IMG/VR virus record: IMGVR_UViG_3300042448_001659
Coordinates: 1 to 36,390 of that record
Direction: 5' to 3' (one strand)
Source: a virus
Length of the DNA stretch: 36,390 nt
The notes under the pieces were generated by a model. The model was not told the origin of the DNA. It saw only the letters and a program-made list of their open reading frames with translations, and did not search any database. Below are positions 3,179 to 31,004 of this stretch, piece after piece (position 1 is the stretch's first letter; every line of letters begins with the position of its first letter). The translations under genes and the position numbers were made by a program.

Positions 3179-3179
3179 A

Positions 3180-7340: not shown

Positions 7341-7582
7341 GCTAATTGAATTGAGCCAGAATAGGCGTTTTGAAATATTTGATTTAATTCTTCATCTACA
7401 TTCTTAAGATATTCTTGTCCGAATGCTTTCTTTACTGATAACGATGTGTATCCCATAGCTCCTGCCATTCGGATACACATTCTTTTGTATTCCCAAACAT
7501 CCATATCGTTTGGTACTTCAAATTCTATTTTAGAGGCTTCTCTATTTAATTCTTCTTCAATGATAAATATTAATTTTGCCAT
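7337..7582 (-). CDS. Conserved small phage protein of unknown function
   Basis: A protein of 81 residues from the ATG at 7582 (MAKLIFIIEEELNREASKIE). An in-frame ATG at 7603 would overlap the upstream gene by 16 bases, while 7582 leaves a gap of five bases, so I prefer 7582. The order of a beta strand, EFEVPNDMDVWEYKRMCIRM and a helix with GYTSLSVKKAFG is one I associate with small acidic proteins found in many phages, without known function. The spacing within the operon supports a real gene. Confidence 0.6.
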   Translation of the reverse strand: MAKLIFIIEEELNREASKIEFEVPNDMDVWEYKRMCIRMAGAMGYTSLSVKKAFGQEYLKNVDEELNQIFQNAYSGSIQLA

Positions 7583-7587
7583 TTTGA

Positions 7588-8163
7588 TTAAATTAAGTTC
7601 CATCCTTTTTGTAAATAAGAATCTACCTTTTTACTTTTTACAAATTCCATTTCTCCAGCAGGACCTTGCAACATAACTCTTTCGTTTCTACCTGGCTCTT
7701 TATCTTTTGTAATAGTTTCTGAATATTGGCGAGTTGGGTGAGTGATATCAATACCATCAATTGCATCAATAGCTCTTTGTACCAACACACATTCTAATAA
7801 TCCAACATCTCCAAAAAATTCATCGGAGTTTTTCCAATCTGATTTTTCTGCTTTAAATTCTACTTGTCCTAAATTATCAGTATCAATAATAAGATATGGA
7901 ACTCGTATTGTCTTTCTAACTTTATTTGCTTTGTGTGTATCTTTTTCAAAATAAACCATTGGATTTTCAGAATACTTAACTACCTTTGGATTTACTAAGG
8001 TTAATTCATCTTCAATATTTCCCAAACGAATTGTTATAATACGTTTATCAATATTTACGTCAGCTCCGGTAAACATAAATCCTTCTAATTTAGATACAGC
8101 TTGTTTATAACTTGCGATATCTACATCTGTAATAGGTGTTTGGTTAATTTTTTGTACTTTCAT
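7588..8163 (-). CDS. Peptide-deformylase-fold protein lacking the HExxH motif
   Basis: A protein of 191 residues. Residues about 58-145 run like a peptide deformylase: LVNPKVV for the LINPEI strand, IRVPYLIIDTD for the strand before the last motif, and GLLECVLVQRAIDAIDGID in place of GLLAxxxQHExDHLxGI. The usual catalytic Glu and both metal-binding His residues are replaced (QRAIDA), and I see no EGCLS motif. If the fold is right, this is a catalytically dead relative. T4-like phages often carry an active deformylase. A C-terminal tail of about 40 residues follows. The protein could be unrelated; this is pattern reading only. Confidence 0.45.
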   Translation of the reverse strand: MKVQKINQTPITDVDIASYKQAVSKLEGFMFTGADVNIDKRIITIRLGNIEDELTLVNPKVVKYSENPMVYFEKDTHKANKVRKTIRVPYLIIDTDNLGQVEFKAEKSDWKNSDEFFGDVGLLECVLVQRAIDAIDGIDITHPTRQYSETITKDKEPGRNERVMLQGPAGEMEFVKSKKVDSYLQKGWNLI

Positions 8164-8332
8164 TTTTTTTATTTTTAATATGTTCTTCTATTTTATTTGT
8201 TATATAATCTATCGTTCCTTCGGGGCCTTCAAATCCCATATATTTCATATAGGTTTCAATTTGTTTTGGATTATTTTCTAATTGTTTTTTTAGTTCTTCC
8301 AATTTAGGAAGGTGTGCTATTATATATGTCAT
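8144..8332 (-). CDS. Small helical protein
   Basis: A protein of 62 residues, charged and helical (LEELKKQLENNPKQIETYMK, ending KNKKNESTKN). It overlaps the upstream cupin gene by one base and the downstream deformylase-like gene by 20 bases, which fits the compact packing seen elsewhere in the window. No recognised family, signal or membrane segment. Real by position; function unknown. Confidence 0.5.
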   Translation of the reverse strand: MTYIIAHLPKLEELKKQLENNPKQIETYMKYMGFEGPEGTIDYITNKIEEHIKNKKNESTKN

Positions 8333-8718
8333 TATTCTAAATCACTTGGTTGGTTTCGGTAAATTCTATAACTATCTTCATCAAAGTGTTGTGTACTTAC
8401 TTCAAATATAGTTGCTTCTTCTGTTAAAGCGGTTAGTTGATGTGGTAGTCCTTTTTTAATTTCAATTACATCTCCTTCCTGTATTTGAGTGTAACATCTC
8501 TCTCCATTTTCAGTATCAATCCAATCAAATTGAAATGCTCCTTTCTGAACATACCAAGTTTCATCTTTAATCATATGATAGTGCATTGAGAACTTATTGC
8601 CTGATTTAGTAAATACTAATAATTTACCACAATAATCCGTATCATTGTGTATCCACAACTCATATCCCCATTTCTTATCAACTCGTTTGGGATGTTGTAT
8701 TTTTACATCGTATATCAT
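8332..8718 (-). CDS. Cupin-domain protein
   Basis: A protein of 128 residues with a single cupin fold. Motif 1 is HYHMIKDETWYVQKG, giving metal ligands His46, His48 and Glu53; motif 2 contains GLPHQL with His93. The start KKWGYELWIHN resembles mannose-6-phosphate isomerase type II and sugar-nucleotide enzymes (the WGxE pattern), so the substrate may be a sugar phosphate, but many cupins only bind small molecules. It lies between the thymidylate synthase gene and small helical genes, in the nucleotide and modification part of the block. Metal binding is well supported; the reaction is unknown. Confidence 0.72.
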   Translation of the reverse strand: MIYDVKIQHPKRVDKKWGYELWIHNDTDYCGKLLVFTKSGNKFSMHYHMIKDETWYVQKGAFQFDWIDTENGERCYTQIQEGDVIEIKKGLPHQLTALTEEATIFEVSTQHFDEDSYRIYRNQPSDLE

Positions 8719-8719
8719 A

Positions 8720-9547
8720 CTAATTACTTAAAGGTGCTTTAATTGCCGGATGATGTTGATATCCTTCTAATATAAAATCATCAGGCACATTACAACATAT
8801 ACCATCCATCTTTGCATTTGTTTTTAATGTTGGTAAATCAAATGAATCTCTACTGATTTGTTCTTTAGCTTGTTCAATGTGATTTAAATACAAATGGGTA
8901 TCACCTAAATTGCCAATCAATTCATCAGGTATCATATCCACTTCGTTTGCTATAATATGAAGTAGTAATCCATAAGAAGCAATATTAAATGGTAATCCTA
9001 AAAATGTATCTACACTTCGTTGATTCCACATTAGAGAAATATATCTTTGTCCATTTTCTTCTCTTGTCCAAACCTGAAATCCATAATGACAAGGTGGTAA
9101 AACCATTTGGTCTAACTCACCTACATTCCAAGCTGATACCATTAATCTTCTACTATCAGGATTGGTTTTAAGTTCTTTTACTAAATCATCTATTTGGTCA
9201 ATCCTTCCATTCTTACCATCCCACTTTCTCCATTGCTTACCATAAATAGGTCCTAAATCACCATCGGTTCTTCCACTCTTTTCATAATCACCATCCCATA
9301 TGTGATTGTTATGTTTATGTAAAAAAGCAATATTAGTTTGGCCTGTTAAAAACCAAAGTAGTTCTGATACGATTTGTTTCCATGCCATTTTCTTTGTTGT
9401 AAGTAATGGAAACCCTTCCTGCATATTATGGCGGATTTGATGTCCGAACTCCGATATAGTACCAGTTCCAGTTCTATCTTTTTTCTCCACACCAAATGCA
9501 ATAATATCACTTAGTAGTTGTTGGTATTTTTTATCTAATGTATTCAT
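8720..9547 (-). CDS. thyA: Thymidylate synthase
   Basis: A protein of 275 residues, full length for ThyA. It converts dUMP to dTMP with methylenetetrahydrofolate as methyl donor and reductant. The N-terminal DRTGTGT loop that binds phosphate, the GPIYGKQWR motif, the catalytic Cys153 in LPPCHYGFQ, the RSVDTFLGLPFNIASY block and the HLYLNHIEQ motif are all present. Phages use it to raise dTTP supply for replication. It lies one base after the stop of a small conserved gene and one base before the cupin gene, in one transcript. The call is secure. Confidence 0.97.
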   Translation of the reverse strand: MNTLDKKYQQLLSDIIAFGVEKKDRTGTGTISEFGHQIRHNMQEGFPLLTTKKMAWKQIVSELLWFLTGQTNIAFLHKHNNHIWDGDYEKSGRTDGDLGPIYGKQWRKWDGKNGRIDQIDDLVKELKTNPDSRRLMVSAWNVGELDQMVLPPCHYGFQVWTREENGQRYISLMWNQRSVDTFLGLPFNIASYGLLLHIIANEVDMIPDELIGNLGDTHLYLNHIEQAKEQISRDSFDLPTLKTNAKMDGICCNVPDDFILEGYQHHPAIKAPLSN

Positions 9548-9548
9548 A

Positions 9549-9848
9549 TTATACTATTAAGTCATCTAATTTTATATTGTGCTCATCCAATATTTCGTAT
9601 ATCCTTTCATATACCATTTCCAATACTTCATAATTACTAACGGATTCTCCTTTAAAATCTTTTCCCTCTAATGTATATCCTATTGATTTTTTAGTATTAT
9701 ATTTTATTTCCCACAATGCTAACGCCATATCTAATGATTTAACTGCTCTCATATGTGCCATAGCATCATCCGTATCATTCAAATCATATTTTAAAATTGC
9801 TTCTGCCATTTCTTTTTGGTTTTTCAGTTTTACTTCTAAAGAATACAA
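9549..9848 (-). CDS. Small helical phage protein
   Basis: A protein of 99 residues, helical, with no signal or membrane segment. Features are an acidic centre (DLNDTDDAMAHMRAVKSLDM) and a C-terminal helix with MVYERIYEILDEHNIKLDDL. I recognise it only as the type of small cytosolic protein often next to thymidylate synthase in phages. The first ATG (9848) overlaps the upstream membrane-protein gene by 65 bases; a second ATG at 9809 would cut this to 26 bases, so the start is uncertain. Function unknown. Confidence 0.55.
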   Translation of the reverse strand: MYSLEVKLKNQKEMAEAILKYDLNDTDDAMAHMRAVKSLDMALALWEIKYNTKKSIGYTLEGKDFKGESVSNYEVLEMVYERIYEILDEHNIKLDDLIV

Positions 9849-10113
9849 ATAGTTTAGATTCCAAATTATCCATTTGAGTCATTGCTATCCATTTTCCTAA
9901 TACACTACCACCAATATAGAATGGTAGTACCCACATATCACCTCTTAATAAACTATCTAATGAAAAATAAACTGAAGCAAGTGATACTAAGTTAATCCAA
10001 ACTGAATTAATCAATAATCGGTTCAATTGATTCTCATATGTAAATTTAATCTCCAATACTTTGAAGATATTAAACATAATTTGAAAGGTTAATATTGCTA
10101 TGTAGTTCATCAT
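9784..10113 (-). CDS. Small polytopic membrane protein
   Basis: A protein of 109 residues with about three hydrophobic segments (residues 3-20, 33-52 and 60-80) and a basic, cytoplasmic-looking tail (RSKTEKPKRNGRSNFKI). The positive tail predicts that the C-terminus stays inside. It starts four bases inside the end of the UvdE gene (ATGA overlap) and its 3' end overlaps the next gene by about 65 bases, a long overlap even for a phage. Unknown function. Confidence 0.55.
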   Translation of the reverse strand: MMNYIAILTFQIMFNIFKVLEIKFTYENQLNRLLINSVWINLVSLASVYFSLDSLLRGDMWVLPFYIGGSVLGKWIAMTQMDNLESKLFVFFRSKTEKPKRNGRSNFKI

Positions 10114-11003
10114 TTGATAAAAGGTAATATTGCTAATTCTTTTCCTTTAGCTTCCACCATAATATCCACATCCAATCCGTATGTATTTGGAAGTGAGTTA
10201 ATATAAAGTGAGTGAGCTTGTGGCTTTTCTTTTGGGTTATTTTCATGTAATGCTTTTGATTCTGAATAGTGAACTTCTTGCGTAATTCCAGCCGGCCAAG
10301 TTGTTGCTGCTAATTTAAGAGCTTCTTCTTCACTCAATCCACCTGTACAAAATTGGTGGTGGTGATAATCAAATACAATTGGAATGCCTGTATGTTTGTG
10401 AATATACATAAGGTCTTTAACGGAATACATAGAAGCCTTATCATCATTCTCTAATGTCAATCGTTTGCGTACGCTTGGAGAGAGTCTTTTGAAGTTCTTA
10501 ATCAATCTATCCATCGCAGATTGTTTGTCTCCATAAACACCATTACAGTGGATGTTGATATTATTATAAGGAGTTTTAGATAATCCCATAAGGTCAAATA
10601 TCTTACCATGCAATTCCAAATCAGCAAAAGTTTTTTGAATAACAGATTCATTTGGAGATGGTAATACATTGAAAGGGCCAGGATGTGAATTAATACGCAT
10701 ATTCCAAAACTTAGCGTAATCACCTGCTTTCTTTAATTCACTCTTAATCTCTTTGTAATCTTTTAATTGGGTTAAATCTAACCCATCACCCCAAGGAACT
10801 AAAGCAGATGATAAACGAAAGAAATTAATTCCGTTTAATCTATTCCACTCTAAAATTTTAATAATATCCTTTGCATTGAGTAATGCAAGTTCGGAAACAT
10901 AGTCTAAACCCTTTGCTTCGAAAGTTCTCTTAACCATTGTTCGGTTAGTACCTACTTTCTTACCCATACTCATATTGATACATGCGTATCCTAAATTAGC
11001 CAT
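10110..11003 (-). CDS. uvsE: UV damage endonuclease (UvdE/UvsE family)
   Basis: A protein of 297 residues, near the family's usual length. It belongs to the TIM-barrel UV damage endonucleases, which nick DNA 5' to pyrimidine dimers. The start NLGYACINM, the FRLSSALVPWG motif, the SHPGPFNVL motif, LTLENDD, the metal-binding VFDYHHHQF and the EVHYSES motif are all in order. It would repair phage DNA in light-exposed hosts. A host-type promoter (11026-11057) lies 23 bases upstream of the ATG, so this gene probably starts a transcript that continues into thymidylate synthase. The family call is strong. Confidence 0.93.
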   Translation of the reverse strand: MANLGYACINMSMGKKVGTNRTMVKRTFEAKGLDYVSELALLNAKDIIKILEWNRLNGINFFRLSSALVPWGDGLDLTQLKDYKEIKSELKKAGDYAKFWNMRINSHPGPFNVLPSPNESVIQKTFADLELHGKIFDLMGLSKTPYNNINIHCNGVYGDKQSAMDRLIKNFKRLSPSVRKRLTLENDDKASMYSVKDLMYIHKHTGIPIVFDYHHHQFCTGGLSEEEALKLAATTWPAGITQEVHYSESKALHENNPKEKPQAHSLYINSLPNTYGLDVDIMVEAKGKELAILPFIK

Positions 11004-11025
11004 TTCGATATAATTTGTTGTTATA

Positions 11026-11057
11026 CAAATATACGAAAATTTAATGAGAATACCAAA
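11026..11057 (-). promoter_or_regulatory. Bacteroidota-type promoter for the UvdE gene
   Basis: Minus strand: TTTG (11057-11054), 20-base spacer, TATATTTG (11033-11026), 23 bases from the ATG at 11003. Both boxes are perfect matches. Confidence 0.78.
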
Positions 11058-11059
11058 TA

Positions 11060-12397
11060 TTAATATGATTTACCTGAAAAATCAGTTGGATATTGAGATG
11101 GTTTGATGTTTTTTATCCAGTAATTAACCGCATTTTGGTCATTTATCCAATTCTTACGGTCATCCCAATTAAATTCAGGCTTAGCGTAATAAGGTAACAT
11201 ATTTTTAATTGCAGCTGCTCTAGATGGATGCTCTGCTCTTACTATATCGATAATACCATCGCCATTTGTGTCATATCCATCAATAGAACCATCACCATCA
11301 TAATCAATTGGTCTCTTTGAGTAATCGGTTTGTAGATTCATTAATATCTCATCGGTAATTTCAGGCTCTAATGCTTTTTTATCTTCATCCGTTAGTGTTA
11401 CTTCATCTTCTTCCACATTTGTTGTATTGGAATCAATTTCTTTTTTTTTTATGTCCTCCGTTTGAAGTAATTTCTCTTTATATTTTTCAGCTGCCTGTAT
11501 AAGCTCCTCAGTTGGGGCTGGTGGTATATTTATCGTGTCAAAAAATGTTTTGGTATCATTTTCAGTTGCTAATATAGGAGTTTCTTCATCTTTTGTAGAA
11601 TTTTTTCCACTATCTCCGTATATTTGGTAATTTTTTTCCATTAAATCATCCAAATCATATGTTTTTTCCTTTTTTTTACCAATCAATCCATTAAATGCGA
11701 TAATTAGAGCGATTGCAAGCGGGTCAAACACTATTACAATCAAAAATATGAAGAATTTTACAACATTTTTCAATTCCATACCAAATGCTTCGGCAATAAA
11801 ACGAAATCCACCCACTTCTTTCTCTAAATCTAAGTTTGCAATCTTAATTTCGTTAATTTTATCGTTATTTTTAGCGTTTTGGTCTTGTAAATCAGCTATT
11901 TTCTTATTAATTGTAGCAACTTGCTTATCTTTACTATCAATTGAACGTAATAAACGTGAATTTACCTTACCTTTCTCTAAAATTGTTGATTGGGTTGAGG
12001 ATAATTGCCCTAATTGAGTGTTAAGTTGAGTAATTTGAGCCGTATTTTGCTCAATTTTAGTAGAAAATACTAAAACTTCCCTATCTACTTGCTGTAATTG
12101 TAATGATTGTGCCTGAAAAGCGTTTGAAAGGTAACCAAAAATACCAGCAGAGGTAATCATCATAAGAATACCTACTGAAATTGTTAAATACCATTTGTTA
12201 AAACCCTTAATTTCATCCCAAGTTTGCTTTAAATATGTTGCAGCAACCAATTTAGCAAACTCCAATGAGCCTGCCATCACCATTACCGCCGTTGATGCTC
12301 CACTAAAAAGTACACCCAATCCAGTTACTGAAAAGAATGCTGCACATCCGGCGATAATTAGTGCTGAAAATCCAACTAAGAACTTTAACCAATTCAT
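11060..12397 (-). CDS. Membrane protein with long coiled coil and EF-hand-like calcium loops
   Basis: A protein of 445 residues. Three hydrophobic segments lie in the first 95 residues, then a long coiled coil (about 98-200, rich in Gln, Leu and Asn), then another membrane segment (about 212-240, FFIFLIVIVFDPLAIALII), and a charged tail. Near residue 370 the tail carries two adjacent loops (DYDGDGSIDGYDTNGDGIID) of the EF-hand/dockerin calcium type. I recall membrane proteins with this plan in T4-like phages but know of no function. It starts one base after the stop of the small helical gene at 12399. A coiled coil between membrane segments suggests a periplasmic or membrane-spanning scaffold. 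Confidence 0.65.
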   Translation of the reverse strand: MNWLKFLVGFSALIIAGCAAFFSVTGLGVLFSGASTAVMVMAGSLEFAKLVAATYLKQTWDEIKGFNKWYLTISVGILMMITSAGIFGYLSNAFQAQSLQLQQVDREVLVFSTKIEQNTAQITQLNTQLGQLSSTQSTILEKGKVNSRLLRSIDSKDKQVATINKKIADLQDQNAKNNDKINEIKIANLDLEKEVGGFRFIAEAFGMELKNVVKFFIFLIVIVFDPLAIALIIAFNGLIGKKKEKTYDLDDLMEKNYQIYGDSGKNSTKDEETPILATENDTKTFFDTINIPPAPTEELIQAAEKYKEKLLQTEDIKKKEIDSNTTNVEEDEVTLTDEDKKALEPEITDEILMNLQTDYSKRPIDYDGDGSIDGYDTNGDGIIDIVRAEHPSRAAAIKNMLPYYAKPEFNWDDRKNWINDQNAVNYWIKNIKPSQYPTDFSGKSY

Positions 12398-15559: not shown

Positions 15560-16390
15560 CTAATTTTCTACTATATGAACACCCTCCACAAGTTCCCCTT
15601 CCGATGGTGCCTCCAAATTAAGTTCAAATGGGTTGCTTTCACCTAATATGATTTCCTCCTGCAATTCATATCTTTCCAATACCCTTTTAACGATACCAGA
15701 ACGAATACAATCTGATGCTGTAAATTCTATTTGATAAGCTCCTTTCATTCCTGCCAATCTTCTCCATATATCATAGAATCCACTTTTAGTGTAAGCTGGC
15801 GAGCCATTATCTCTATATTTGTCACATTGAGAAAGGTCACCTTCTATAACTAATTTTGAATCATCTGAAATTCTAGTGATTAAAGTTTTCAATTGTAGTG
15901 GTGATGCGTTTTGTGCTTCATCTAAAATAATATAACTCTTTTCAAAGTTGATACCTCTTAAGAAGTTCATTACTCTAAACTCAATCTTTTTGTTTTCAAT
16001 TAATTTCTTAACTTCAACAGGTCCGATAATTTTGTTTAAGATAAATAAAGATGATTCATTATGGACTTCTATCTTCTCCATCAAATCGCCAGGTAAATGA
16101 CCTAACTTATCTTCGTTACCAACATCTACTGTTGGGTTTATTATAATAAGTTTTTCGATTGGTGATGATTTGTGTAATAATAGTTCCAATCCTTTTTGTA
16201 TTGATATGTAAGTTTTTCCAGCTCCGGCTAACGCATGGGCCATTATAATATTATTCCCTTCGTTTTCTATTGCTTTGTAAAATCTCTTTTGGTTTCTTGT
16301 TTTAAATTTAATTCTCTTTATAACTTTTGGTAATGTGTGTACTACCGTTTCTAATTCTTCTAAATTTTGCAATTTCTCTTTCTTAGCCAT
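15560..16390 (-). CDS. phoH: PhoH-like ATPase
   Basis: A protein of 276 residues. Walker A is AHALAGAGKT (51-60), Walker B is IILDEAQN (about 154-161), and the PhoH signature EGDLSQCD is at 183-190, with LKTLITRI between. PhoH proteins are SF1-related ATPases; some have RNA helicase activity, and the gene is very common in phages, where its role remains unsettled. The C-terminus is acidic. It overlaps nothing upstream (21-base gap). Between this gene and the nucleotidase promoter lies only the repeat region. Confidence 0.92.
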   Translation of the reverse strand: MAKKEKLQNLEELETVVHTLPKVIKRIKFKTRNQKRFYKAIENEGNNIIMAHALAGAGKTYISIQKGLELLLHKSSPIEKLIIINPTVDVGNEDKLGHLPGDLMEKIEVHNESSLFILNKIIGPVEVKKLIENKKIEFRVMNFLRGINFEKSYIILDEAQNASPLQLKTLITRISDDSKLVIEGDLSQCDKYRDNGSPAYTKSGFYDIWRRLAGMKGAYQIEFTASDCIRSGIVKRVLERYELQEEIILGESNPFELNLEAPSEGELVEGVHIVEN

Positions 16391-20908: not shown

Positions 20909-23900
20909 ATGAAAAATCTGAAAAAACTGATGTTATTGATGGTGATGTTCGCATTCTCATTCGTAGCAAAAGCACAAGAGACTACATCTGAAATTCAAGG
21001 TAATGTTTTGGCAGGTAAGGAAGCTATCGCCGGTGCAACGGTACAAGCTATCCATCAACCAACAGGAACTAAGTACACAACAAGTACTCGTGCCGATGGA
21101 AGATACAACCTACCAAACGTTAAAATTGGAGGACCTTATGTAGTGACAGTATCGTTTGTAGGCTATAAAGCCGAAACACAAAATGATATTACTTTATTAT
21201 TAGGACAAACCCACAAAGCTAACTTTAGTTTAGTAGAAGCTAACACAACATTGAAAGAAGTTGTAGTTACTTCAGGTCAAAACAAAGTATTTAACTCTAG
21301 CCGTAATGGTTCACAAGAAATCATCAACAGAAGATTAATTGAATCAGTACCTAACGTTAATAGAAGCTGGAAAGACTTAGTAAAATTAGTTCCTTCTCAA
21401 AACAACTTATCATTTGGTGGTATGAGTTCTCAATTGAATAACGTAACCTTAGATGGTGCTAACTTCAATAACTCATTCGGCTTAGGTGATGGTACATTAG
21501 GTGGACAAACAGGAGCTCAACCAATCTCTTTAGATGCGATTGAGCAAATCCAAGTAAACGTTTCTCCGTTTGATGTGAAGTATGGTGGATTCGCAGGTGG
21601 TTCAATAAACACAGTGACTCGTAGTGGTAAGAATCAGGCTTTCGGTTCTGTTTATCAATTCTTTAAGAACAAAGATTTACAGGGTTATAAAGTTGGTGAT
21701 ATCACAATGCCTGAACAACCTTTCACTTATGATTTAAAAGGATTCACAGCAGGTGGAGCAATTGTTAAAAACAAATTGTTCTTCTTTGTGAATGGTGAGC
21801 AAGAAGAAAGAATGGAACCGGGTACACAATGGACAGCATCTACTCCAACAAGTGCACCAAATGGTAATAGTGTTTCACAAGCTAAAGCAGCTGATTTGGA
21901 TGCTTTAAGACAATTCTTAATTGATAAGTATTCATATGATCCTGGTGCATATCAAGGATATCAGTATGGTTCTAAATCACAACGTTTAACAACTAAATTA
22001 GATTGGACTATTAATAGTAAGAATTCATTCTCATTTAAGTACACAATGTTACGTTCTTCAGCAGATATCCCACCATCTAACTCACAATCAGTAAACGCTT
22101 CAAATGGTAGAAGACCAAGCACAACAGCGATGCCTTTCTACGGAGCTGGTTATACAATTAATAACAATGCTGATATCTTTATTGGTGAGTTAAACACTCG
22201 TTTCTCAAATAACGCTTCCAACAAATTACAAATTGGATATACTAAATTGAGAGATTTTAGAGGTACATTGACTAGTGGTAATTTCCCACAAGTGGATATC
22301 TTAGATGGTAATGGACAACCTTATACCACATTTGGTTATGAGAGATTTACTTATGGTAATGAATTGAATACCGATGTAGTTCAAGTGAATAACATTTTCA
22401 ACTTATACAAAGGTAAGCATGAATTTACATTTGGTACACAAAATTCATTTAAGCAATATTCAAATGGATTCTCACCTAACTATGCAGGTGCATTCCGTTT
22501 CAATAGCTTAGCTGATTTCTACGCATCAGCAGCAGGTACAAAACCAGCAGCTGTGTATGATTTATCTTGGTCTTTAACTGGTGATTTCCCATTAGTAGGA
22601 CCAAAGAATACTGAATTAAGTTTATTCGCTCAGGACAAATTCAGAGTAAAAGATAATTTGACTATTACTTATGGTATTAGAGCTGATTATGTTTCTTTCG
22701 CTGATAACTTCCTTTACAATCCCGTAGTTGATACATTATCTAAATTCTATAACGGAGTTCGTTTGAACACAGGTTTAGCACCTAAAGCTTCATTACAAAT
22801 CTCTCCTAGAATTGGTTTCAACTGGGATGTGAACAATGACCAAACATTACAAGTACGTGGTGGTACTGGATTATTCCAAGGACCTCCTCCATTCGTATGG
22901 ATTTCAAATCAGGCATCTAATAGTGGTATGGCATTGTTTGGTTCTATCACAAATGCAACCGGATATATGTTCAACCCAGATATCAACGCATATAGACCAA
23001 CACCAACGCCAGGTTTATCAAGAGCATATTCTCTTAACGTAACCGACCCTAATTACAAATTCCCACAAGTTTGGAAATCAACTTTAGCAGTTGATAAGAA
23101 AATCTTAGGATGGACAGTAACTGCGGAAGGTACATACATTAAGAACATTAACGCTACGGTATTCCAAAACGTTGCATTACCTTCAATGGGTAACATAACA
23201 TTAAGTGATGGTAGAACTCGTTTCGTTAAACGTTCAGTTTATGATGCAACTGGAACTGCTCAAACAGCAGCTAATCCAAACATTGGTAACGCAATTTATA
23301 TGACTAATGCAAACATTGGTTATGTATTATTTGGTACGTTACAGGTTCAAAGACAATTTAAGAATTTAGCAGTAAACGCTTCTTATACTCGTCAAACAGC
23401 TACCGATGGTACAATCAATGGTTCAACTGCATTTACAATGTGGGGAGCTAGACCAACGGCTACTAATCCTAATAACTTTGAGCAAGGTTTATCAAATAAC
23501 TACTTACCTCATAGAGTTATCGCTAGTGTAAACTATGGTAAAGAATTGATTAAGAACACAAGAACTTCAATTGGTTTATTATATGAAGCTTCTCCTAACG
23601 CTCTTCAATCTTCTCTTTCTTACACATACGCAGGTGATTTGAACAACGATGGTTTCAATGGTAACGATTTAATGTTCGTTCCCGCTGATGCATCTCAAAT
23701 CAAATTAGTAAACGCATCTGCTGTTAGTGGTGTAGCTGATACAAGAACACAAACTGAATTATGGAATCAATTAGATGCTTTCATCTCAGGCAACAAATAC
23801 TTAAACTCTCGTAGAGGTATGATGGCTGAAAGACAAGCATTGGTATTACCTTGGGTTCATAGATTAGATTTAAACTTCACACAAGATGTTTATATCAAAG

Positions 23901-24169
23901 TTGGAGAATCTAAACATACTTTAAGATTCACTGCTGATATCTACAACTTCACTAACTTTATTAGTAAAGAATTAGGTATTCAACAATTACCAACAACAAT
24001 GACTCCGCTTAACTTTGTTAGATTGGATACGGATGGTAAAACTCCTATCTACTCATTCCCTTATTTAGATGGTAGAAATAAAGTTCCATTCACCGAATCA
24101 TTCAGAGATAACGTAGGATTTGGTTCTCGTTACCAAATTCAATTAGGCGTTAGATATTTATTTAACTAA
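20909..24169 (+). CDS. TonB-dependent outer-membrane receptor (Oar-like)
   Basis: A complete protein of 1086 residues. A signal peptide ending VAKAQ is followed by a carboxypeptidase-regulatory-like domain (about 27-112, with ATVQAIHQPTGTKYTTST and VSFVGYKAE), a plug domain (about 120-245: NNVTLDGANFNNSFG, IEQIQVNVSPFDVKYGGFAG, GSINTVTRSG) and a large beta barrel ending with GSRYQIQLGVRYLFN, an aromatic-rich last strand. Such receptors import large substrates using TonB energy. It is intact, on the opposite strand to its neighbours, with its own promoter, leader and terminator. Codons look richer in C than in the neighbours, which would fit recent capture from a host. The family is secure; substrate and purpose in a phage are unknown. 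Confidence 0.93.
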   Translation: MKNLKKLMLLMVMFAFSFVAKAQETTSEIQGNVLAGKEAIAGATVQAIHQPTGTKYTTSTRADGRYNLPNVKIGGPYVVTVSFVGYKAETQNDITLLLGQTHKANFSLVEANTTLKEVVVTSGQNKVFNSSRNGSQEIINRRLIESVPNVNRSWKDLVKLVPSQNNLSFGGMSSQLNNVTLDGANFNNSFGLGDGTLGGQTGAQPISLDAIEQIQVNVSPFDVKYGGFAGGSINTVTRSGKNQAFGSVYQFFKNKDLQGYKVGDITMPEQPFTYDLKGFTAGGAIVKNKLFFFVNGEQEERMEPGTQWTASTPTSAPNGNSVSQAKAADLDALRQFLIDKYSYDPGAYQGYQYGSKSQRLTTKLDWTINSKNSFSFKYTMLRSSADIPPSNSQSVNASNGRRPSTTAMPFYGAGYTINNNADIFIGELNTRFSNNASNKLQIGYTKLRDFRGTLTSGNFPQVDILDGNGQPYTTFGYERFTYGNELNTDVVQVNNIFNLYKGKHEFTFGTQNSFKQYSNGFSPNYAGAFRFNSLADFYASAAGTKPAAVYDLSWSLTGDFPLVGPKNTELSLFAQDKFRVKDNLTITYGIRADYVSFADNFLYNPVVDTLSKFYNGVRLNTGLAPKASLQISPRIGFNWDVNNDQTLQVRGGTGLFQGPPPFVWISNQASNSGMALFGSITNATGYMFNPDINAYRPTPTPGLSRAYSLNVTDPNYKFPQVWKSTLAVDKKILGWTVTAEGTYIKNINATVFQNVALPSMGNITLSDGRTRFVKRSVYDATGTAQTAANPNIGNAIYMTNANIGYVLFGTLQVQRQFKNLAVNASYTRQTATDGTINGSTAFTMWGARPTATNPNNFEQGLSNNYLPHRVIASVNYGKELIKNTRTSIGLLYEASPNALQSSLSYTYAGDLNNDGFNGNDLMFVPADASQIKLVNASAVSGVADTRTQTELWNQLDAFISGNKYLNSRRGMMAERQALVLPWVHRLDLNFTQDVYIKVGESKHTLRFTADIYNFTNFISKELGIQQLPTTMTPLNFVRLDTDGKTPIYSFPYLDGRNKVPFTESFRDNVGFGSRYQIQLGVRYLFN

Positions 24170-25307: not shown

Positions 25308-25580
25308 TTATTTTAGGTTATCGTATTTTTTCTTATTACTATCGCTTTGCCACTTCATCTCAACAGCTACCCATTTACCTCTAGGACAAGCACCAATAAC
25401 AGGCGAATATACTTTAGCTTTAAGTGCACATCCACACTCACCACAATGAATAATCGGAGTAGTTCTTTTAGAATCACAAGTATCACATATCTCCATTCTA
25501 GCAGCTGCCAAATCAGATTGCGCATCATTTGGGTTAAACATTATACCCCAAGCTCTGAATATTTCTTCTATCTTATTCAT
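25308..25580 (-). CDS. Zinc-ribbon protein
   Basis: A protein of 90 residues with two Cys pairs: CDTCDSKR and, 11 residues later, CGECGCALKAKV, followed by a further Cys before PRGKW. The spacing C-x2-C ... C-x2-C-x-C suits a zinc ribbon. I recall short proteins with this CxxC/CGC/CPxGKW layout in T4-like phages, without known function. The N-terminal 30 residues are helical. It lies next to the array of small paralogues but is not one of them. Zinc binding is likely; a role in transcription or DNA binding is a guess. Confidence 0.65.
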   Translation of the reverse strand: MNKIEEIFRAWGIMFNPNDAQSDLAAARMEICDTCDSKRTTPIIHCGECGCALKAKVYSPVIGACPRGKWVAVEMKWQSDSNKKKYDNLK

Positions 25581-25601: not shown

Positions 25602-25913
25602 TTATAAGGTATTTAAATAATGTGTTAGAGATTCACCAAACAATTCCATATCTTCCAATACAGTATGATAAATAACATCCTCAATTATATTAGAAGGTCT
25701 TATATCATCTTCTACCAATGATATTTGATATGCGGTTTCAAATTCTATTTCAGAAACAATTGGTTCTCTTAATATAGCCATTGTTACACTCTTTTTGGTA
25801 TTAGCATTAAACGCCTGTAATGCATAACACTCTTTCATTTCTTCTACTCTACCAATTTGCCAATCTCCAAAGTATTGATTCTTAATCTTCTTATAGTTCT
25901 TTATTACTAACAT
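25602..25913 (-). CDS. Array paralogue (MLxIxN family), most downstream member
   Basis: A protein of 103 residues. It begins MLVIKNYKKIKNQYFGDWQI, the array signature: Met, hydrophobic, x, Ile, x, Asn, then a GDW turn. The closest match I see is to the member at 29353 (NDTYFGDWQV). The middle has LREPIVSEI and the C-terminal helix carries ESLTHYLNTL. It is the last member in transcription order. One base separates it from the next gene upstream. Function unknown, as for all members. Confidence 0.6.
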   Translation of the reverse strand: MLVIKNYKKIKNQYFGDWQIGRVEEMKECYALQAFNANTKKSVTMAILREPIVSEIEFETAYQISLVEDDIRPSNIIEDVIYHTVLEDMELFGESLTHYLNTL

Positions 25914-25914
25914 A

Positions 25915-26220
25915 TTACACCTTAACCTTTAAATTGTGTCTAACTACTACATCCACTATTGCATCATAAACTGAATTAACATTTTCTAATTCTTTTTTAT
26001 TCAACCAATATTCCGATACACCACATAACATTAAATACTCATCTTTATGCGGATGGTCTTGTTGTGGCGGACTAATTCTACTTAATGTTATTCTATAATA
26101 TTCATTAGAAGGCAAAGTGGGATAGTAGTATATTATTTCATAATACAATTCTAATTCTCCAATATCTATTTGACTTCTAAATAATCTAGTCAACTTATCC
26201 CAATTCTTTATTGTTATCAT
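25915..26220 (-). CDS. Array paralogue (MLxIxN family)
   Basis: A protein of 101 residues starting MITIKNWDKLTRLFRSQIDI. The N-terminal strand and the following turn keep the family pattern, but the GW turn is lost (QIDIG). The middle has paired Tyr strands (YYEIIYYYP), a short ISPPQQDHP insert and a C-terminal helix (VYDAIVDVVVRHNLKV). Very diverged from the others; membership rests on the start, size, place and strand order. Confidence 0.55.
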   Translation of the reverse strand: MITIKNWDKLTRLFRSQIDIGELELYYEIIYYYPTLPSNEYYRITLSRISPPQQDHPHKDEYLMLCGVSEYWLNKKELENVNSVYDAIVDVVVRHNLKVKV

Positions 26221-26222
26221 AA

Positions 26223-26528
26223 TTAAAAAGGTAAAGGATATTCATCATCAATAACCGATTCTATAAAATTATAGAAGGCGCTTTTATTCAAATGGTTAGG
26301 AGCTAATTGAAATTCCTTCTTCCATTGGTCTTTCATATCTTGAAGATATACTTTATGAAACCCACCGGGTTCGGCTTCTCTATGTACCAAAACATATACT
26401 CTCTTTCCCTCTACTCTATGTTCAAATTCAAAAGAATAAAATGCACTATCTTCCATAGCAAACTTCATATCCCATCCAAAGAATACTCCGTAATTCATAT
26501 CACTATTATAATTTTTTATTGTAATCAT
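26223..26528 (-). CDS. Array paralogue (MLxIxN family)
   Basis: A protein of 101 residues starting MITIKNYNSDMNYGVFFGWD. The FFGWD turn matches the GW position of other members (DGWEV, GGWVV). Next come strands with FYSFEFEHRVEGKRVYVLVH and a helix near the end (SAFYNFIESVIDD). Its start overlaps the end of the next upstream gene by 23 bases, so the genes are tightly packed. Function unknown. Confidence 0.58.
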   Translation of the reverse strand: MITIKNYNSDMNYGVFFGWDMKFAMEDSAFYSFEFEHRVEGKRVYVLVHREAEPGGFHKVYLQDMKDQWKKEFQLAPNHLNKSAFYNFIESVIDDEYPLPF

Positions 26529-27009
26529 CTATCTGTTGTTGTAAAGTTTGTAATGCTTGTATTGCTGCAGTTTGAATATTATTTGTTATTGATATTGAGC
26601 CACTCTTATATGTAAAATTAGTACCAGCGTTTTGGACTTGATTAATAATTCCCGTAGTACCACCATTAATATTTGTAGTTGCTTTCTTTACATACGATTG
26701 TGCTTCTTCTAATATATCATCAACTAACATTTCATATTGCTCTCTAAATTTTTGTAAAGTATCAATATTGGTTTTTGTTAAATGTGATTTAGCTAATAGA
26801 AGTTGGGTTACACTATCTTTAATACGAAATGTAATTACACCTTTAACTGGAGTTGCCGTTAATTCAATATCCCACTTTGGTTTATAAACTTGATTCAAAT
26901 TCAATATAGTTGCATAGTAAACTTCTTCATTGGCATTATGCATTGGATTAACAATAGAGTAACCTTTGTAAGTAAAGCCCGATATTTTCTCCCATCCTTT
27001 AATCTTCAT
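26506..27009 (-). CDS. Longer array paralogue with C-terminal extension
   Basis: A protein of 167 residues, starting MKIKGWEKISGFTYKGYSIV. The first 105 residues follow the array plan (start strand, Gly turn, strands such as VYYATILNLNQVY, IELTATPVKGVITFRI). A C-terminal extension of about 60 residues has a helix, a Thr/Gly/Asn-rich link and a final Gln-rich helix (AAIQALQTLQQQIDDYNKKL). A host-type promoter (27029-27060) lies 20 bases upstream of the ATG, so transcription restarts here inside the array. The extension could be an oligomerisation or linker segment. Confidence 0.58.
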   Translation of the reverse strand: MKIKGWEKISGFTYKGYSIVNPMHNANEEVYYATILNLNQVYKPKWDIELTATPVKGVITFRIKDSVTQLLLAKSHLTKTNIDTLQKFREQYEMLVDDILEEAQSYVKKATTNINGGTTGIINQVQNAGTNFTYKSGSISITNNIQTAAIQALQTLQQQIDDYNKKL

Positions 27010-27028
27010 TACGAAATTGTTTTATCAG

Positions 27029-27060
27029 TAAAGGTACGAAATTTTCCGCACTTTACCAAA
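27029..27060 (-). promoter_or_regulatory. Bacteroidota-type promoter inside the paralogue array
   Basis: Minus strand: TTTG (27060-27057), 20-base spacer, TACCTTTA (27036-27029), 20 bases from the ATG at 27009. Confidence 0.65.
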
Positions 27061-27065
27061 TCTAA

Positions 27066-27377
27066 TTAAATTGATTCCTTAAGAGCCGAACCAAAAGTAT
27101 TCATCGCATTCTGCCAATCTTCAAACCATTTTGCTGTTATCAAATGTTGAGATTTTATTCCGGGATAATTTAATGTATATACCCATTCACTATTTTGCCT
27201 ATCCCAATGACCAATCTTACTTACCTCAATCCAAAGGACTCTAACATTAGGAGTTCGGGTATCTTCGAATTGGAAACGATAGTTAGTATCTGTTTCGTGG
27301 GCATATCTAAATACAAATATACCATTCCAAAATTGAGTACCAACTAATCTATCCGTATTTTTTATCTTCAATATCAT
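27066..27377 (-). CDS. Array paralogue (MLxIxN family)
   Basis: A protein of 103 residues starting MILKIKNTDRLVGTQFWNGI. It has the array's start strand and a WNG turn in place of GW, then FRYAHETDTNYRFQFED, a strand with VRVLWIEVSKIG, a Tyr/Trp strand and a last helix (WFEDWQNAMNTFGSALKE). It overlaps the next upstream gene by one base (TAATG). Function unknown. Confidence 0.6.
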   Translation of the reverse strand: MILKIKNTDRLVGTQFWNGIFVFRYAHETDTNYRFQFEDTRTPNVRVLWIEVSKIGHWDRQNSEWVYTLNYPGIKSQHLITAKWFEDWQNAMNTFGSALKESI

Positions 27378-27943
27378 TATCTAAATTTTTCGTTAAACAT
27401 ATAAGCTATTTCATATAGTAATCTATTTGGGTCTTTACATACACCTACATCCATAATCTCTGTTCTACCTTCACAATAAACACTAACTCTATGAGAATCG
27501 TACATAGTATCATATATGTAAAATGTAACACTCTTTGTCATACCACCAGTTTGTAATGCGAATTCGTATCCATTTGATGTGTGGAATGCATGAACCACAA
27601 TCCATCTTCTACCAAATACCATAGTAGCCATACCAGCTATTCTATCCCAATTTTGTATCACTAATGGTTTACCTATATGATTGAGAGGTGGCACATTTAA
27701 TGATGAAGTACTAAAGGCTGTTGGCATTGCCGGCGGTGGTGGTGGTATAGATTGAAAGGATGGAATTGGCGCCTGTTTAGCTTTCTTCTTTTTACTAAAG
27801 TATTCTCTCCATATCCACCCAATAGCAGTATTATCCCAAAATATTCTTCGCATAGTATCACCATCGGTAACGATAATACCATATACCCATAATCCCAAAA
27901 CACCGCTCATTACCATAGCGAATACAATTTCTCCAAAACTCAT
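27377..27943 (-). CDS. Array paralogue fused to a membrane anchor
   Basis: A protein of 188 residues with a distinct design. A transmembrane helix at the N-terminus (about residues 3-26, FAMVMSGVLGLWVYGIIV) is followed by a basic stretch (FSKKKKAKQ), a proline-rich linker with PPPPPA, and from about residue 91 a full array domain: LVIQNWDRIAGMATMVFGRR, strands such as FALQTGGMTKSVTFYIYD and a C-terminal helix. This places at least one member at the inner membrane with its array domain in the cytoplasm (basic flank rule). It is useful as a clue to where the family works. Confidence 0.68.
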   Translation of the reverse strand: MSFGEIVFAMVMSGVLGLWVYGIIVTDGDTMRRIFWDNTAIGWIWREYFSKKKKAKQAPIPSFQSIPPPPPAMPTAFSTSSLNVPPLNHIGKPLVIQNWDRIAGMATMVFGRRWIVVHAFHTSNGYEFALQTGGMTKSVTFYIYDTMYDSHRVSVYCEGRTEIMDVGVCKDPNRLLYEIAYMFNEKFR

Positions 27944-27944
27944 A

Positions 27945-28268
27945 TTATTTTAATTTTAACATATAATCAATTAATTCAACCAATACCCCTGCTCCTACTT
28001 TAAAATCCGATACACTCAACATTTTTCGTATTGGTATTTGATGTGCCGGGTCTGGGTCATTGTACCACCACCATAATTCATATTGGGAATACCCTTCTGA
28101 ATTCATAGGAGTTCTCTCAATATTAATTCTATTTAAAGGTTTACCATCCGGTGTGGTTGGGTATATCCGATATTGCGTTTCCGTTTCCTCAATACCACCA
28201 ACAAACCATTTTTTACTATTAGGTCCTTTACCAATTAAGTTTCTATGAAAGTTTTCTATTGTTAGCAT
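27945..28268 (-). CDS. Array paralogue (MLxIxN family)
   Basis: A protein of 107 residues starting MLTIENFHRNLIGKGPNSKK. It has a longer loop after the start strand, then WFVGGIEE, a YRIYPTTPDG strand, INIERTPMN (the I-x-R position shared with other members), YELWWWYND and a C-terminal helix (AGVLVELIDYMLKLK). It follows the upstream gene by one base. Function unknown. Confidence 0.6.
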   Translation of the reverse strand: MLTIENFHRNLIGKGPNSKKWFVGGIEETETQYRIYPTTPDGKPLNRINIERTPMNSEGYSQYELWWWYNDPDPAHQIPIRKMLSVSDFKVGAGVLVELIDYMLKLK

Positions 28269-28269
28269 A

Positions 28270-28608
28270 TTATTTAGTTACTTCGTTTTCCCACCACCAT
28301 TGTGCTTTAGCTAATACTTTAGATATCTCTGATGCCAATCCATCTTTAGTTTTAACATCATCAATAGTAATGAATCGTCTGGTTACCAAATGTAATCCCA
28401 TCACAAATATTTGATACTCTCCTTTATTTACATCTCTACCCAATCTTACTTCCCTTTCTTTATTATATCCCTCACCATCACCTATTGGACCGAAGTGGAA
28501 AGAATAGAATTGTTCACCTAACTTATTGTGTGTTTCGGTTATCCTTTTCAATCCTCTATTATGGCAGAAGTTTAACTCTAATTCCTTTATGTTCTTTATT
28601 GTAAGCAT
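28270..28608 (-). CDS. Array paralogue (MLxIxN family)
   Basis: A protein of 112 residues starting MLTIKNIKELELNFCHNRGL. After the start strand there is FYSFHFGPIGDG, a charged strand with EVRLGRD, then KGEYQIFVMGLHLVTRRF and a helix (GLASEISKVLAKAQWWWENE). The order of strands and helix matches the others. The end of this gene is one base from the next start. Function unknown. Confidence 0.6.
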   Translation of the reverse strand: MLTIKNIKELELNFCHNRGLKRITETHNKLGEQFYSFHFGPIGDGEGYNKEREVRLGRDVNKGEYQIFVMGLHLVTRRFITIDDVKTKDGLASEISKVLAKAQWWWENEVTK

Positions 28609-28609
28609 T

Positions 28610-28927
28610 TTATAAATTTTCTTTGTTTACTAATATGTATTCCAATTTGGCTATCATATTATCTTTATCCGCCAACCAATCTGCGGTAGCACATACATCG
28701 GTTCGTTGTGAATTGTATATAAAAAAATATACCAACTTATCACTATGTGTATGGCCGGTTCTCTCCAACATAATTGTACAATGTTTGGGTGTAAAACTCC
28801 ACACATCATCCTTAACCAATTCAATTATATAGGTATCGTTGTGGTTACCTTCGTATATTAGTTTTACTTCCCACCCATCCCATATACCTTGCCCTTGTAA
28901 TTTCAATATGTTCTTAATTGTTAGCAT
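28610..28927 (-). CDS. Array paralogue (MLxIxN family), subfamily A
   Basis: A protein of 105 residues starting MLTIKNILKLQGQGIWDGWE. It shares with the member at 29687 the blocks YFFIYNSQRTDVCATADW (there YFFNYNGEQTDVCVTGEW) and a closing helix (MIAKLEYIL against FISQLKYII). This is the clearest pair in the array and shows that members are true homologues. A gap of 78 bases lies upstream, the largest in the array, without a recognisable promoter. Function unknown. Confidence 0.68.
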   Translation of the reverse strand: MLTIKNILKLQGQGIWDGWEVKLIYEGNHNDTYIIELVKDDVWSFTPKHCTIMLERTGHTHSDKLVYFFIYNSQRTDVCATADWLADKDNMIAKLEYILVNKENL

Positions 28928-29005
28928 ATAATTCAGTTCATCTATATCATCAACTCCACATCGGGTCGAATTTAAGATTTTTTTAGGTTTTGTTTTGATT
29001 GATAG

Positions 29006-29350
29006 TTATTTCTTTCGTTTGTAGTATTCATCATTAATTCTATATAATAGCAATCCAAAGAATGCATCCTTCTTACCAATTGATTCCTTACTCAGTTCGG
29101 TTTGGTATATTATCGTAGTCCATTCATCATACACTATCGTTATGTGATACTTCCCCAACGCATTTACATTTCTATCTATAAGAACGCCGGCTCTATCATC
29201 CAACATCACACCAATATTATCCATTTTAGCAAATACAATCTTATAATAATTCTCTCCCCTTTCTACGTTTTGTTTTTCACAGGCCTCTAATATCTTCCAA
29301 TCATTCATTCCGGTCCCATTCAAATCTCCTATGTTGTTTATCGTTAGCAT
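29006..29350 (-). CDS. Array paralogue (MLxIxN family), subfamily B
   Basis: A protein of 114 residues starting MLTINNIGDLNGTGMNDWKI. The second half has KYHITIVYDEWTTIIYQ, then KKDAFFGLLLYRINDEYYKR. The members at 29353 and 30024 have a similar Y-strand, IY/IW and K-helix with NxEY in the same order, which defines a second subfamily. The gap to the upstream neighbour is two bases. Function unknown. Confidence 0.65.
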   Translation of the reverse strand: MLTINNIGDLNGTGMNDWKILEACEKQNVERGENYYKIVFAKMDNIGVMLDDRAGVLIDRNVNALGKYHITIVYDEWTTIIYQTELSKESIGKKDAFFGLLLYRINDEYYKRKK

Positions 29351-29352
29351 TG

Positions 29353-29685
29353 TTATTGTTTTTTTCGTAATGTATATTCCGCATTAACATACCCCATCAT
29401 ATTCTTTAAGAAGTGTCCCTTATCCATAATCACTCTCTTAGAAAACGCACCTTCGTATATTCTATTATCAAAACTATCATAACAAACATACACATGGTAT
29501 TGTTTCGTTAGTGGGTTTATGTTTCTCCAAATCAAAATAGCGGCGCCATCATTTCCTTTACCTAATGAAATCGAATAGTGTTCCGTTGGTAACCACTTCT
29601 TCGGCCTACTAGCTTTAGCTTCAGCCACTTGCCAATCACCAAAATAGGTATCGTTCAGTTTTTCTATGTTCTCTATCTTTAGCAT
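29353..29685 (-). CDS. Array paralogue (MLxIxN family), subfamily B
   Basis: A protein of 110 residues starting MLKIENIEKLNDTYFGDWQV. Compared with the member at 29006 it keeps QYHVYVCYDSFDNRIYEG and a helix FLKNMMGYVNAEYTLRKK at the end. Its start also closely resembles the member at 25602 (QYFGDWQI), so the array's order does not simply follow its duplication history. Function unknown. Confidence 0.65.
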   Translation of the reverse strand: MLKIENIEKLNDTYFGDWQVAEAKASRPKKWLPTEHYSISLGKGNDGAAILIWRNINPLTKQYHVYVCYDSFDNRIYEGAFSKRVIMDKGHFLKNMMGYVNAEYTLRKKQ

Positions 29686-29686
29686 T

Positions 29687-30022
29687 CTATCGTTTGTTAT
29701 GGTATTCGTTAATAATGTATTTCAATTGGGATATGAAGTTTTCGGGATTCTTTATCCACTCCCCAGTAACGCACACATCGGTTTGTTCTCCATTGTAGTT
29801 AAAGAAGTAAGCCGTAGTATCGGGCTTGAACATATTCCTTTGTAGTTCACCAATTCGGTTAATGGATATCGTACATCTATCAATTGTATTTCCCAACGGA
29901 CCCATACAGTGGATATCGAACATATATTTGTTTTGTGTAGGGTGGCAATTCATATCCCTAACTACCCAACCTCCAAATATCCTTCTACCAGCCAGCTTAG
30001 TTACATTTTGTATTGTTAGCAT
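29687..30022 (-). CDS. Array paralogue (MLxIxN family), subfamily A
   Basis: A protein of 111 residues starting MLTIQNVTKLAGRRIFGGWV. It is paired with the member at 28610 by the YFFNYNGEQTDVCVTGEW block and the C-terminal helix. Both have the ISINR/IMLER strand in the middle. Two subfamily B genes sit between the two subfamily A genes, so the types alternate. Function unknown. Confidence 0.68.
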   Translation of the reverse strand: MLTIQNVTKLAGRRIFGGWVVRDMNCHPTQNKYMFDIHCMGPLGNTIDRCTISINRIGELQRNMFKPDTTAYFFNYNGEQTDVCVTGEWIKNPENFISQLKYIINEYHNKR

Positions 30023-30023
30023 A

Positions 30024-30362
30024 TTATATTCGGTTTATATGTGTGTGAAGCATTGAAGCGATTGAACGAAGTAGAGCATCCTTCTTACGAAGTACATCAA
30101 TAACCAACCACTCCTGCCATATTACATTATCGGTAGTTCCGTAGAATAACTTACAAAAGTATCTTCCTCTCATATCGGAATCTGCTCCAATCGTTAAACA
30201 CGCGGGCTTGGCATTACCAAATGGTGGGCGTTTATCGAATTGGATTTGATAGTGGGCATCTCTTTCTAAGTTAGAGCCGTTCTCCAAAAAATCACAATGT
30301 GAAAGATTGAATCCTCCACATACTTCTCCATTGAGTTCTCGTATGTTTCTTATGTTTAGCAT
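30024..30362 (-). CDS. Array paralogue (MLxIxN family), subfamily B-like
   Basis: A protein of 112 residues starting MLNIRNIRELNGEVCGGFNL. It has HYQIQFDKRPP, a strand with CLTIGADSDMRGRYFCKLFY, then NVIWQEWLV and a helix (KKDALLRSIASMLHTHI). The RYFCKLFY/NVIW/KKDALL order corresponds to KYHITIVY/TIIY/KKDAFF at 29006. Three Cys residues are not conserved in relatives. Function unknown. Confidence 0.62.
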   Translation of the reverse strand: MLNIRNIRELNGEVCGGFNLSHCDFLENGSNLERDAHYQIQFDKRPPFGNAKPACLTIGADSDMRGRYFCKLFYGTTDNVIWQEWLVIDVLRKKDALLRSIASMLHTHINRI

Positions 30363-30380
30363 GTTATCGGACAGTTTTAC

Positions 30381-30620
30381 TTATTTCAGTATAGATAGTA
30401 TAGAGGATACTGAAAACTTAGGTGTTTTATTTTTACCTAATGTAGAGTACTCATATTGCCTATTCAGTTCGTTAGCCCGTATGATACCACCTCTATCCTC
30501 ATAGGACTGAGATACATTCAACTCACTCATCCATTGTTGGTATAGTGGGTCCGCAATTGTATTATTACGTTCCTGCTCTAATAACTCATACTTTTCTAAA
30601 TCTAATCTTTCTAAATTCAT
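30381..30620 (-). CDS. Small helical protein within the array
   Basis: A protein of 79 residues that does not share the array start. It is helical and acidic at first (MNLERLDLEKYELLEQERNN) with a basic, Ser-rich end (KNKTPKFSVSSILSILK). It sits between two array members with short gaps and in the same direction. Function unknown; it may be an unrelated passenger in the transcript. Confidence 0.5.
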   Translation of the reverse strand: MNLERLDLEKYELLEQERNNTIADPLYQQWMSELNVSQSYEDRGGIIRANELNRQYEYSTLGKNKTPKFSVSSILSILK

Positions 30621-30638
30621 AATCTTAATTTTTATTGT

Positions 30639-31004
30639 TTATTTAATCTTATTGCCAGGTGAACCATCAAATACTCCTTCACTAGCCAACTTAAGTGTGT
30701 GGTTTAAGAATGAAGTGAATTGGGATATATTACTCAATGAATCCCTATCTATACTCATAGGGTACGATATATTAGCTTCCATATCCCATAGCCATATATG
30801 ATAACCTCTACTATCATCTCTCCATCCCTTATCTATACTCATCTTATAATGCTTAGGTCCTATTGGGGTAAAGGATATCACATCCCTTATATCAATACCC
30901 ATTACATACTTATCTCCCATATCCGTACTATACTTAACCTCTAAGAAGTCCGAATAGATATCCATAACGGACTTAGTAAAGTTTTTAATGTTTAATCGTT
31001 TCAT
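30639..31004 (-). CDS. Array paralogue, most upstream member
   Basis: A protein of 121 residues starting MKRLNIKNFTKSVMDIYSDF, in which LNIKNF is the array start shifted by two residues. The middle has KHYKMSIDKGWRDDSRGYHI (the I-x-K/R strand then a Tyr strand) followed by a C-terminal helix (QFTSFLNHTLKLASEG). It follows the 53-residue gene by one base. Function unknown; membership is likely but less clear than for the central members. Confidence 0.55.
   Translation of the reverse strand: MKRLNIKNFTKSVMDIYSDFLEVKYSTDMGDKYVMGIDIRDVISFTPIGPKHYKMSIDKGWRDDSRGYHIWLWDMEANISYPMSIDRDSLSNISQFTSFLNHTLKLASEGVFDGSPGNKIK

Follow-up and report, generated by a model that had tools for sequence, protein, structure and literature searches.

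In this study, we analysed a 36,390-bp window, the complete virus record IMGVR_UViG_3300042448_001659 of IMG/VR and probably a genome fragment, in which fourteen small genes of one previously undescribed, strongly diverged protein family form a tandem array on the minus strand (25602–31004). Most members of this family begin with a 21-bp block, ATGCTAACAATARAAAACATA, which is conserved as DNA between paralogues, and two whole-gene gain or loss events between close relatives were observed to recombine within this block or flush with it. We propose that the array is a repertoire of exchangeable cassettes, joined at the start block as a seam and encoding binding scaffolds that would act against host or rival factors, an explanation to which, taken as a whole, we give an even chance of being correct.

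An earlier note on this DNA had read the fourteen open reading frames (ORFs) as one paralogue family and had suggested a profile search as a check. All fourteen were found at the positions it gave, on the minus strand. A family profile was built from 191 members of other contigs, with the window and its nearest relatives (contigs L005, L006 and G001) left out to avoid circularity; the sources are IMG/VR metagenomic contigs, many of them partial. This independent profile matched 13 of the 14 ORFs with E-values of 3.8e-21 to 9.7e-5, all within 1e-4. Outside the fourteen, the window has 102 ORFs of at least 50 amino acids (aa), and none of these scored below 0.1. ORF 26506–27009 scored 0.076 with it and joined on iteration through its orthologues, at 4.8e-4 and then about 2e-10, which confirms the fourteen as one family. 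Nor do most members belong to separate known families: Pfam, PHROGs, NCBIfam and PADLOC-DB gave no family recurring across members, only scattered single matches at E 0.004 or worse, and PDB sequences no match better than E 0.5. The family, being without entry in the libraries searched, is previously undescribed. Paralogues within the window share a median of 18% identity (range 11–39%). Gaps between genes are mostly 1–2 bp, as the note had described, but two measure 56 and 78 bp; in addition, ORFs 26506 and 26223 overlap by 23 bp, and the array includes one gene from outside the family. The pairs 28610 with 29687 and 29006 with 29353 were recovered both by BLAST and in the tree, whereas 30024, which had been grouped with the second pair, joins it by BLAST and not in the tree. 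The proposed alternation of two subfamilies did not hold, since tree and identity clustering instead spread the members over many orthologue groups.

Comparison across relatives bore out the expectation that copy number and order differ between related phages. No genome contains a pair of members above 50% identity, against 301 such pairs between genomes (102 above 70%), and clustering at 45% identity yields 107 clusters, 42 of them singletons. The ratio of nonsynonymous to synonymous substitution rates (dN/dS) lies below 0.5 in 32 of 35 close orthologue pairs, which comprise 29 array members and 6 non-array neighbours; the exceptions are 26506 (0.66), 27377 (0.55) and the gene at 51163 of contig G002 (1.2). 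Close orthologues are thus mostly under purifying selection, and this, together with the absence of recent duplicates, argues against ongoing fast diversification by duplication, the origin that the earlier note had assumed. Old cassettes are gained, lost and exchanged, and it is in this way that the arrays change, rather than through recent duplication with fast divergence. A tandem duplication array with recent copies was considered and dropped, near-identical paralogues being absent within each genome.

The core types 25602 and 27066 are each found a single time, and always in the same order, in every contig that extends over the 3′ end of array A, which would also be expected if the paralogues together formed one hetero-oligomeric assembly, such as a membrane or cell-surface complex acting with the phage TonB-dependent receptor encoded beside the array. 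The apparent membrane anchor of some members, the closeness of the array to the receptor gene in the contigs checked and the mostly purifying selection point the same way. However, even phages with array regions that are mostly 91–95% identical differ in their genes, and a fixed complex would not tolerate the turnover that the 42 singleton clusters display, so that we consider such an assembly improbable.

The start block is exemplified at 28907–28927 on the minus strand (ATGCTAACAATTAAGAACATA) and by that of 29687–30022 (30002–30022, minus strand, ATGCTAACAATACAAAATGTA), and similar blocks begin most members. Among the 107 cluster representatives, 64 begin with ML.I.N, and the codons behind these residues are strongly biased: Leu2 is CTA in 72% of representatives compared with 12% in the background (p 2e-28), Thr3 is ACA in 100% (45%), Ile4 ATA in 91% (59%), Asn6 AAC in 61% (25%) and Ile7 ATA in 100% (59%). 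The ATG is the exact start of the block, and the bias ends at codon 7, being gone by codon 8; codons of Leu10 and of the invariant core Tyr and Arg are near background. In the 274-kb contig G002, ATGYTAACAATA is found nine times, every time at array genes, and its non-array genes show no bias to CTA or AAC but a milder 5′ preference for ACA and ATA. A search of viral contigs with nothing but a degenerate 21-bp DNA pattern returned 22 stretches, and 13 of the 14 located on newly found contigs encode the family. In solitary members the block is weaker or mostly absent, at internal domain starts it is mostly lost, and contigs with few scattered members (G008, G015, G017, G018) use TTA, with CTA in 0 of 9 cases. 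Matches to sigma-70-type promoters were fewer than in shuffled sequence and the Bacteroidota −7 motif TAWWTTTG occurred no more often than by chance, so no promoter was assigned.

Several of these features would equally suit a translational or regulatory element, such as the target of a T4 RegA-like repressor or an initiation enhancer, selected to co-regulate the array: the exact start at the ATG, the end of the bias at codon 7, the loss at internal domain starts and weakening in solitary genes, and the mild ACA and ATA bias in non-array genes of G002. Against this stand the two indels that recombine in the block or flush with it, and the replacement of CTA by TTA in few-member contigs, which is expected if recombinational homogenisation depends on array size. 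We regard a translational or regulatory block as rather unlikely, and it should be noted that a role as seam and a translational or regulatory role can coexist.

The first of the two junctions comes from contigs G002 and G004. Most of the array region is about 90–98% identical between them, but G004 contains extra genes. A two-gene indel between them is joined at identical blocks, ATGCTAACAATAGAAAACATA, with the upstream sequence derived from one copy and the gene body from the other. In the second case, L068 and L073 are 98% identical alongside a one-gene indel, and in L073 the upstream sequence and block of the missing gene, ATGCTAACAATAAAAAAC, run into the body of the next gene, leaving a chimeric block. 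Homology ends in close pairs cluster in the same region: 56 of 105 pairs lose 5′ homology within 240 nt, of which 34 end at −10 to 0 relative to the ATG (13 exactly at 0), 14 at −37 to −12 and 8 further away, and most 3′ homology ends 0–39 nt past the stop codon. Since these pairs share ancestry and block conservation itself shapes the endpoints, we based the mechanism on the two explicit junctions. Two seam events are hence observed, and that the seam operates generally is what we infer from them.

A number of points weigh against this proposal. Only the two explicit junctions locate a crossover; the homology-end pairs are not independent, the conserved block itself makes homology end there, and phages commonly have breakpoints close to the ends of genes. 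Not every other difference between G002 and G004 shows a block junction: one concerns a small membrane-type ORF, another a member with a C-terminal extension, and a third is a replacement with an unrelated ORF. Selection might maintain the block for translation or regulation, recombination there being a by-product, and its loss at solitary members and internal domain starts is predicted by both the seam and the regulatory reading. A fixed multi-subunit machine would likewise account for purifying selection on the core types, and the genome counts derive from metagenomic fragments.

The cassette-like layout and the many variants would suit a diversity-generating retroelement, or an integron-like recombinase acting at specific sites, as the source of diversity. 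However, variation is not limited to one hypervariable segment, and neither a reverse transcriptase (PF00078) nor a tyrosine recombinase (PF00589) was found in G001–G004, records which are fragments and for which the controls were positive. We consider this origin hardly credible.

For exchange at the start block, we propose a model in which a large T4-superfamily phage, probably infecting Bacteroidota, would hold one or two tight arrays of diverged copies of one small domain. A cassette would comprise a gene body, its stop codon, the 1–2 bp gap and the start block of the next gene, as the junctions suggest. The block ATGCTAACAATARAAAACATA, kept alike at the DNA level between paralogues, would serve as homology seam at which general recombination could add, delete or swap whole genes in frame while leaving their neighbours undisturbed. 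Each phage would thereby keep a non-redundant sample from an open pool of more than 100 types, some of them apparently membrane-anchored and others fused to a zinc-ribbon-like segment.

The predicted fold of the domain was obtained confidently for one member, 28610–28927, for which AlphaFold2 with a 109-member alignment gave a predicted local distance difference test (pLDDT) of 92.2 and a predicted template modelling score of 0.83; it consists of a short helix, an antiparallel β-meander and a C-terminal helix. For 26506, modelled from its own 4-sequence alignment, pLDDT reached only 39. Foldseek searches of PDB and BFVD gave no E-value below 0.1, the best VIA-align Z was 5.7, under the typical background of 7–8, and the PDB fold matches were weak, uninterpretable mixtures of capping protein, RWD-like, E2, SH2 and lipocalin folds. 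Conservation is found in the hydrophobic core and at L2, I4, N6, Y33 and R56; most other positions, including those on the surface, are near maximal entropy, N6 and R56 are the few conserved polar residues, and the isoelectric points of members have quartiles of 6.2, 7.8 and 9.1. A conserved core, a nearly free surface, varied charge and no polar set suggesting catalysis make it most likely that the members serve as non-enzymatic scaffolds for binding, each to a partner of its own. A role as nucleic-acid mimic or in nucleic-acid binding was dropped, as charge varies widely among members. Turnover, non-redundancy and free surfaces fit best with partners from the host or from rival phages, which we name as the likeliest targets only tentatively and with confidence well short of even; the roles suggested by the earlier note (anti-defence, superinfection exclusion or host inhibition) would fit this picture.

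In order of transcription, the array starts with the member at 30639–31004, followed by a non-family gene of 79 aa (30381–30620) that is kept at the array head in relatives, and by members at 30024–30362, 29687–30022, 29353–29685, 29006–29350, 28610–28927, 28270–28608 and 27945–28268, all on the minus strand like those that follow. The protein of 27377–27943 combines an N-terminal hydrophobic segment and a Pro-rich linker containing (F/Y)xTSSL with a C-terminal family domain; its membrane anchor is apparent, the segment having been read from the sequence by eye and not predicted by a tool. The core type at 27066–27377 (ETDTNYRFQF) precedes the distant member 26506–27009 with its helical, Gly-rich C-terminal extension, and the member at 26223–26528, whose orthologues in the G003/G005/G006 group have an N-terminal extension with ITSTP. 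The array closes with 25915–26220 and, at the 3′ end of array A, the core type 25602–25913, present in 10 of 10 contigs covering that end.

The motif (F/Y)(N/S/H)TSSL recurs in the linker of 27377–27943 and in C-terminally extended members of G004–G007, which end in AKKAA(Y/F). Fusions of a zinc-ribbon-like N-terminus to the family domain lie far from the arrays (G002:99447-100004 and G003:91097-91642, the latter also L044:1098-1643), and their Gly-rich C-terminal segment resembles that of 26506 by eye. The repeated unit has no conserved Cys column; an N-terminal CxxC pair is confined to this small fused subgroup.

Scans of viral contigs and record searches brought the family to at least 265 members, spread over more than 20 viral contigs. 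Long contigs contain two clusters each, some 10–15 kb apart, with 14 to 35 copies, for example 35 in G001 (19+16), 20 in G002, including one fused to a zinc-ribbon-like N-terminus, and 14 in G003. Lineages are fewer than contigs, because some contigs nearly duplicate each other (G002/G004, G016/G019, G012/G014, L011/L012). Two scans of bacterial genomes with types 25602 and 27066 found no relative, and tblastn searches of annotated phages with two members gave no match. Among the genes of G002 are those for a T4-type major head protein, portal, terminase and sheath, and the carriers are large T4-superfamily phages. Their host probably belongs to the Bacteroidota, as suggested by named relatives, ribosomal protein bS21 and a SusC-like receptor. 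Flavobacterium phage immuto (MW353175) is among the named phages closest in capsid and terminase (52–58% identity), and no family member was detected in it by a profile that recovers the family from 12 of 13 other records. Phage-encoded bS21 is present in three of four relatives tested (G001, G002, G003), in G002 far from the capsid genes, unlike in the bS21 phages of PMC9723584.

Next to the array, the window encodes the SusC-like TonB-dependent receptor of 1086 aa on the plus strand (20909–24169; CarboxypepD_reg, plug and barrel domains). It is conserved in relatives (70% identity in G001; dN/dS 0.17 with L005), and among annotated phage records it has a full-length match only in one unannotated 6-kb faecal contig. 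In L010, L011 and L013, a cytidylyltransferase-like gene follows the array in place of the small Cys-rich gene of the window (25308–25580), as judged by eye. On the minus strand, genes for a UvdE-type UV endonuclease (10110–11003), a thymidylate synthase (8720–9547) and a PhoH-like protein (15560–16390) are found, as well as two large ORFs with signal-peptide-like starts (869–4844). Stretches of the latter resemble dockerin and cohesin modules by eye, with no Pfam or PHROG match, and similar large ORFs lie in G002 at 7348–11318.

Among the databases and papers searched, we found no described system with such a layout, in agreement with the earlier note, and no phage array of this kind in the literature covered. 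Bacillus phage G contains about 35 zinc-ribbon copies, a lineage-specific expansion of small proteins in jumbo phages (PMC7824862), and is thus likewise a large phage in whose genome a small domain is repeated in tens of diverged copies. The family described here differs in not being a zinc ribbon, in its tandem arrays with a DNA-conserved start block, partly common to related phages, and in being carried by T4-superfamily phages. The multigene families of African swine fever virus and the gene "accordions" of poxviruses are tandem diverged paralogues whose copy number varies between isolates, several of them acting against host defence. Our arrays resemble them in tandem layout and variable copy number, but occur in bacterial viruses, lack recent duplicates and exchange whole cassettes at a start-codon block. 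Integron arrays also hold interchangeable single-gene cassettes in a row, yet use a separate attC-type site, whereas the seam proposed here lies inside the coding start, and no tyrosine recombinase was found in the fragments G001–G004. Immuto, finally, has related T4-type capsid and terminase genes but not, as far as detected, the family.

In summary, more than 260 members make up a family that is absent from the libraries searched and that occupies two arrays in a lineage of large aquatic phages. The start block provides a concrete and testable route by which whole genes could be shuffled in frame without a dedicated recombinase. That large Bacteroidota phages trade single genes in frame at a conserved 21-bp seam without an integrase, and so maintain a non-redundant repertoire against hosts and rivals, appears to us plausible at somewhat less than even chance. 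If members do act on factors of hosts or rival phages, the arrays would constitute a catalogue of new inhibitors.

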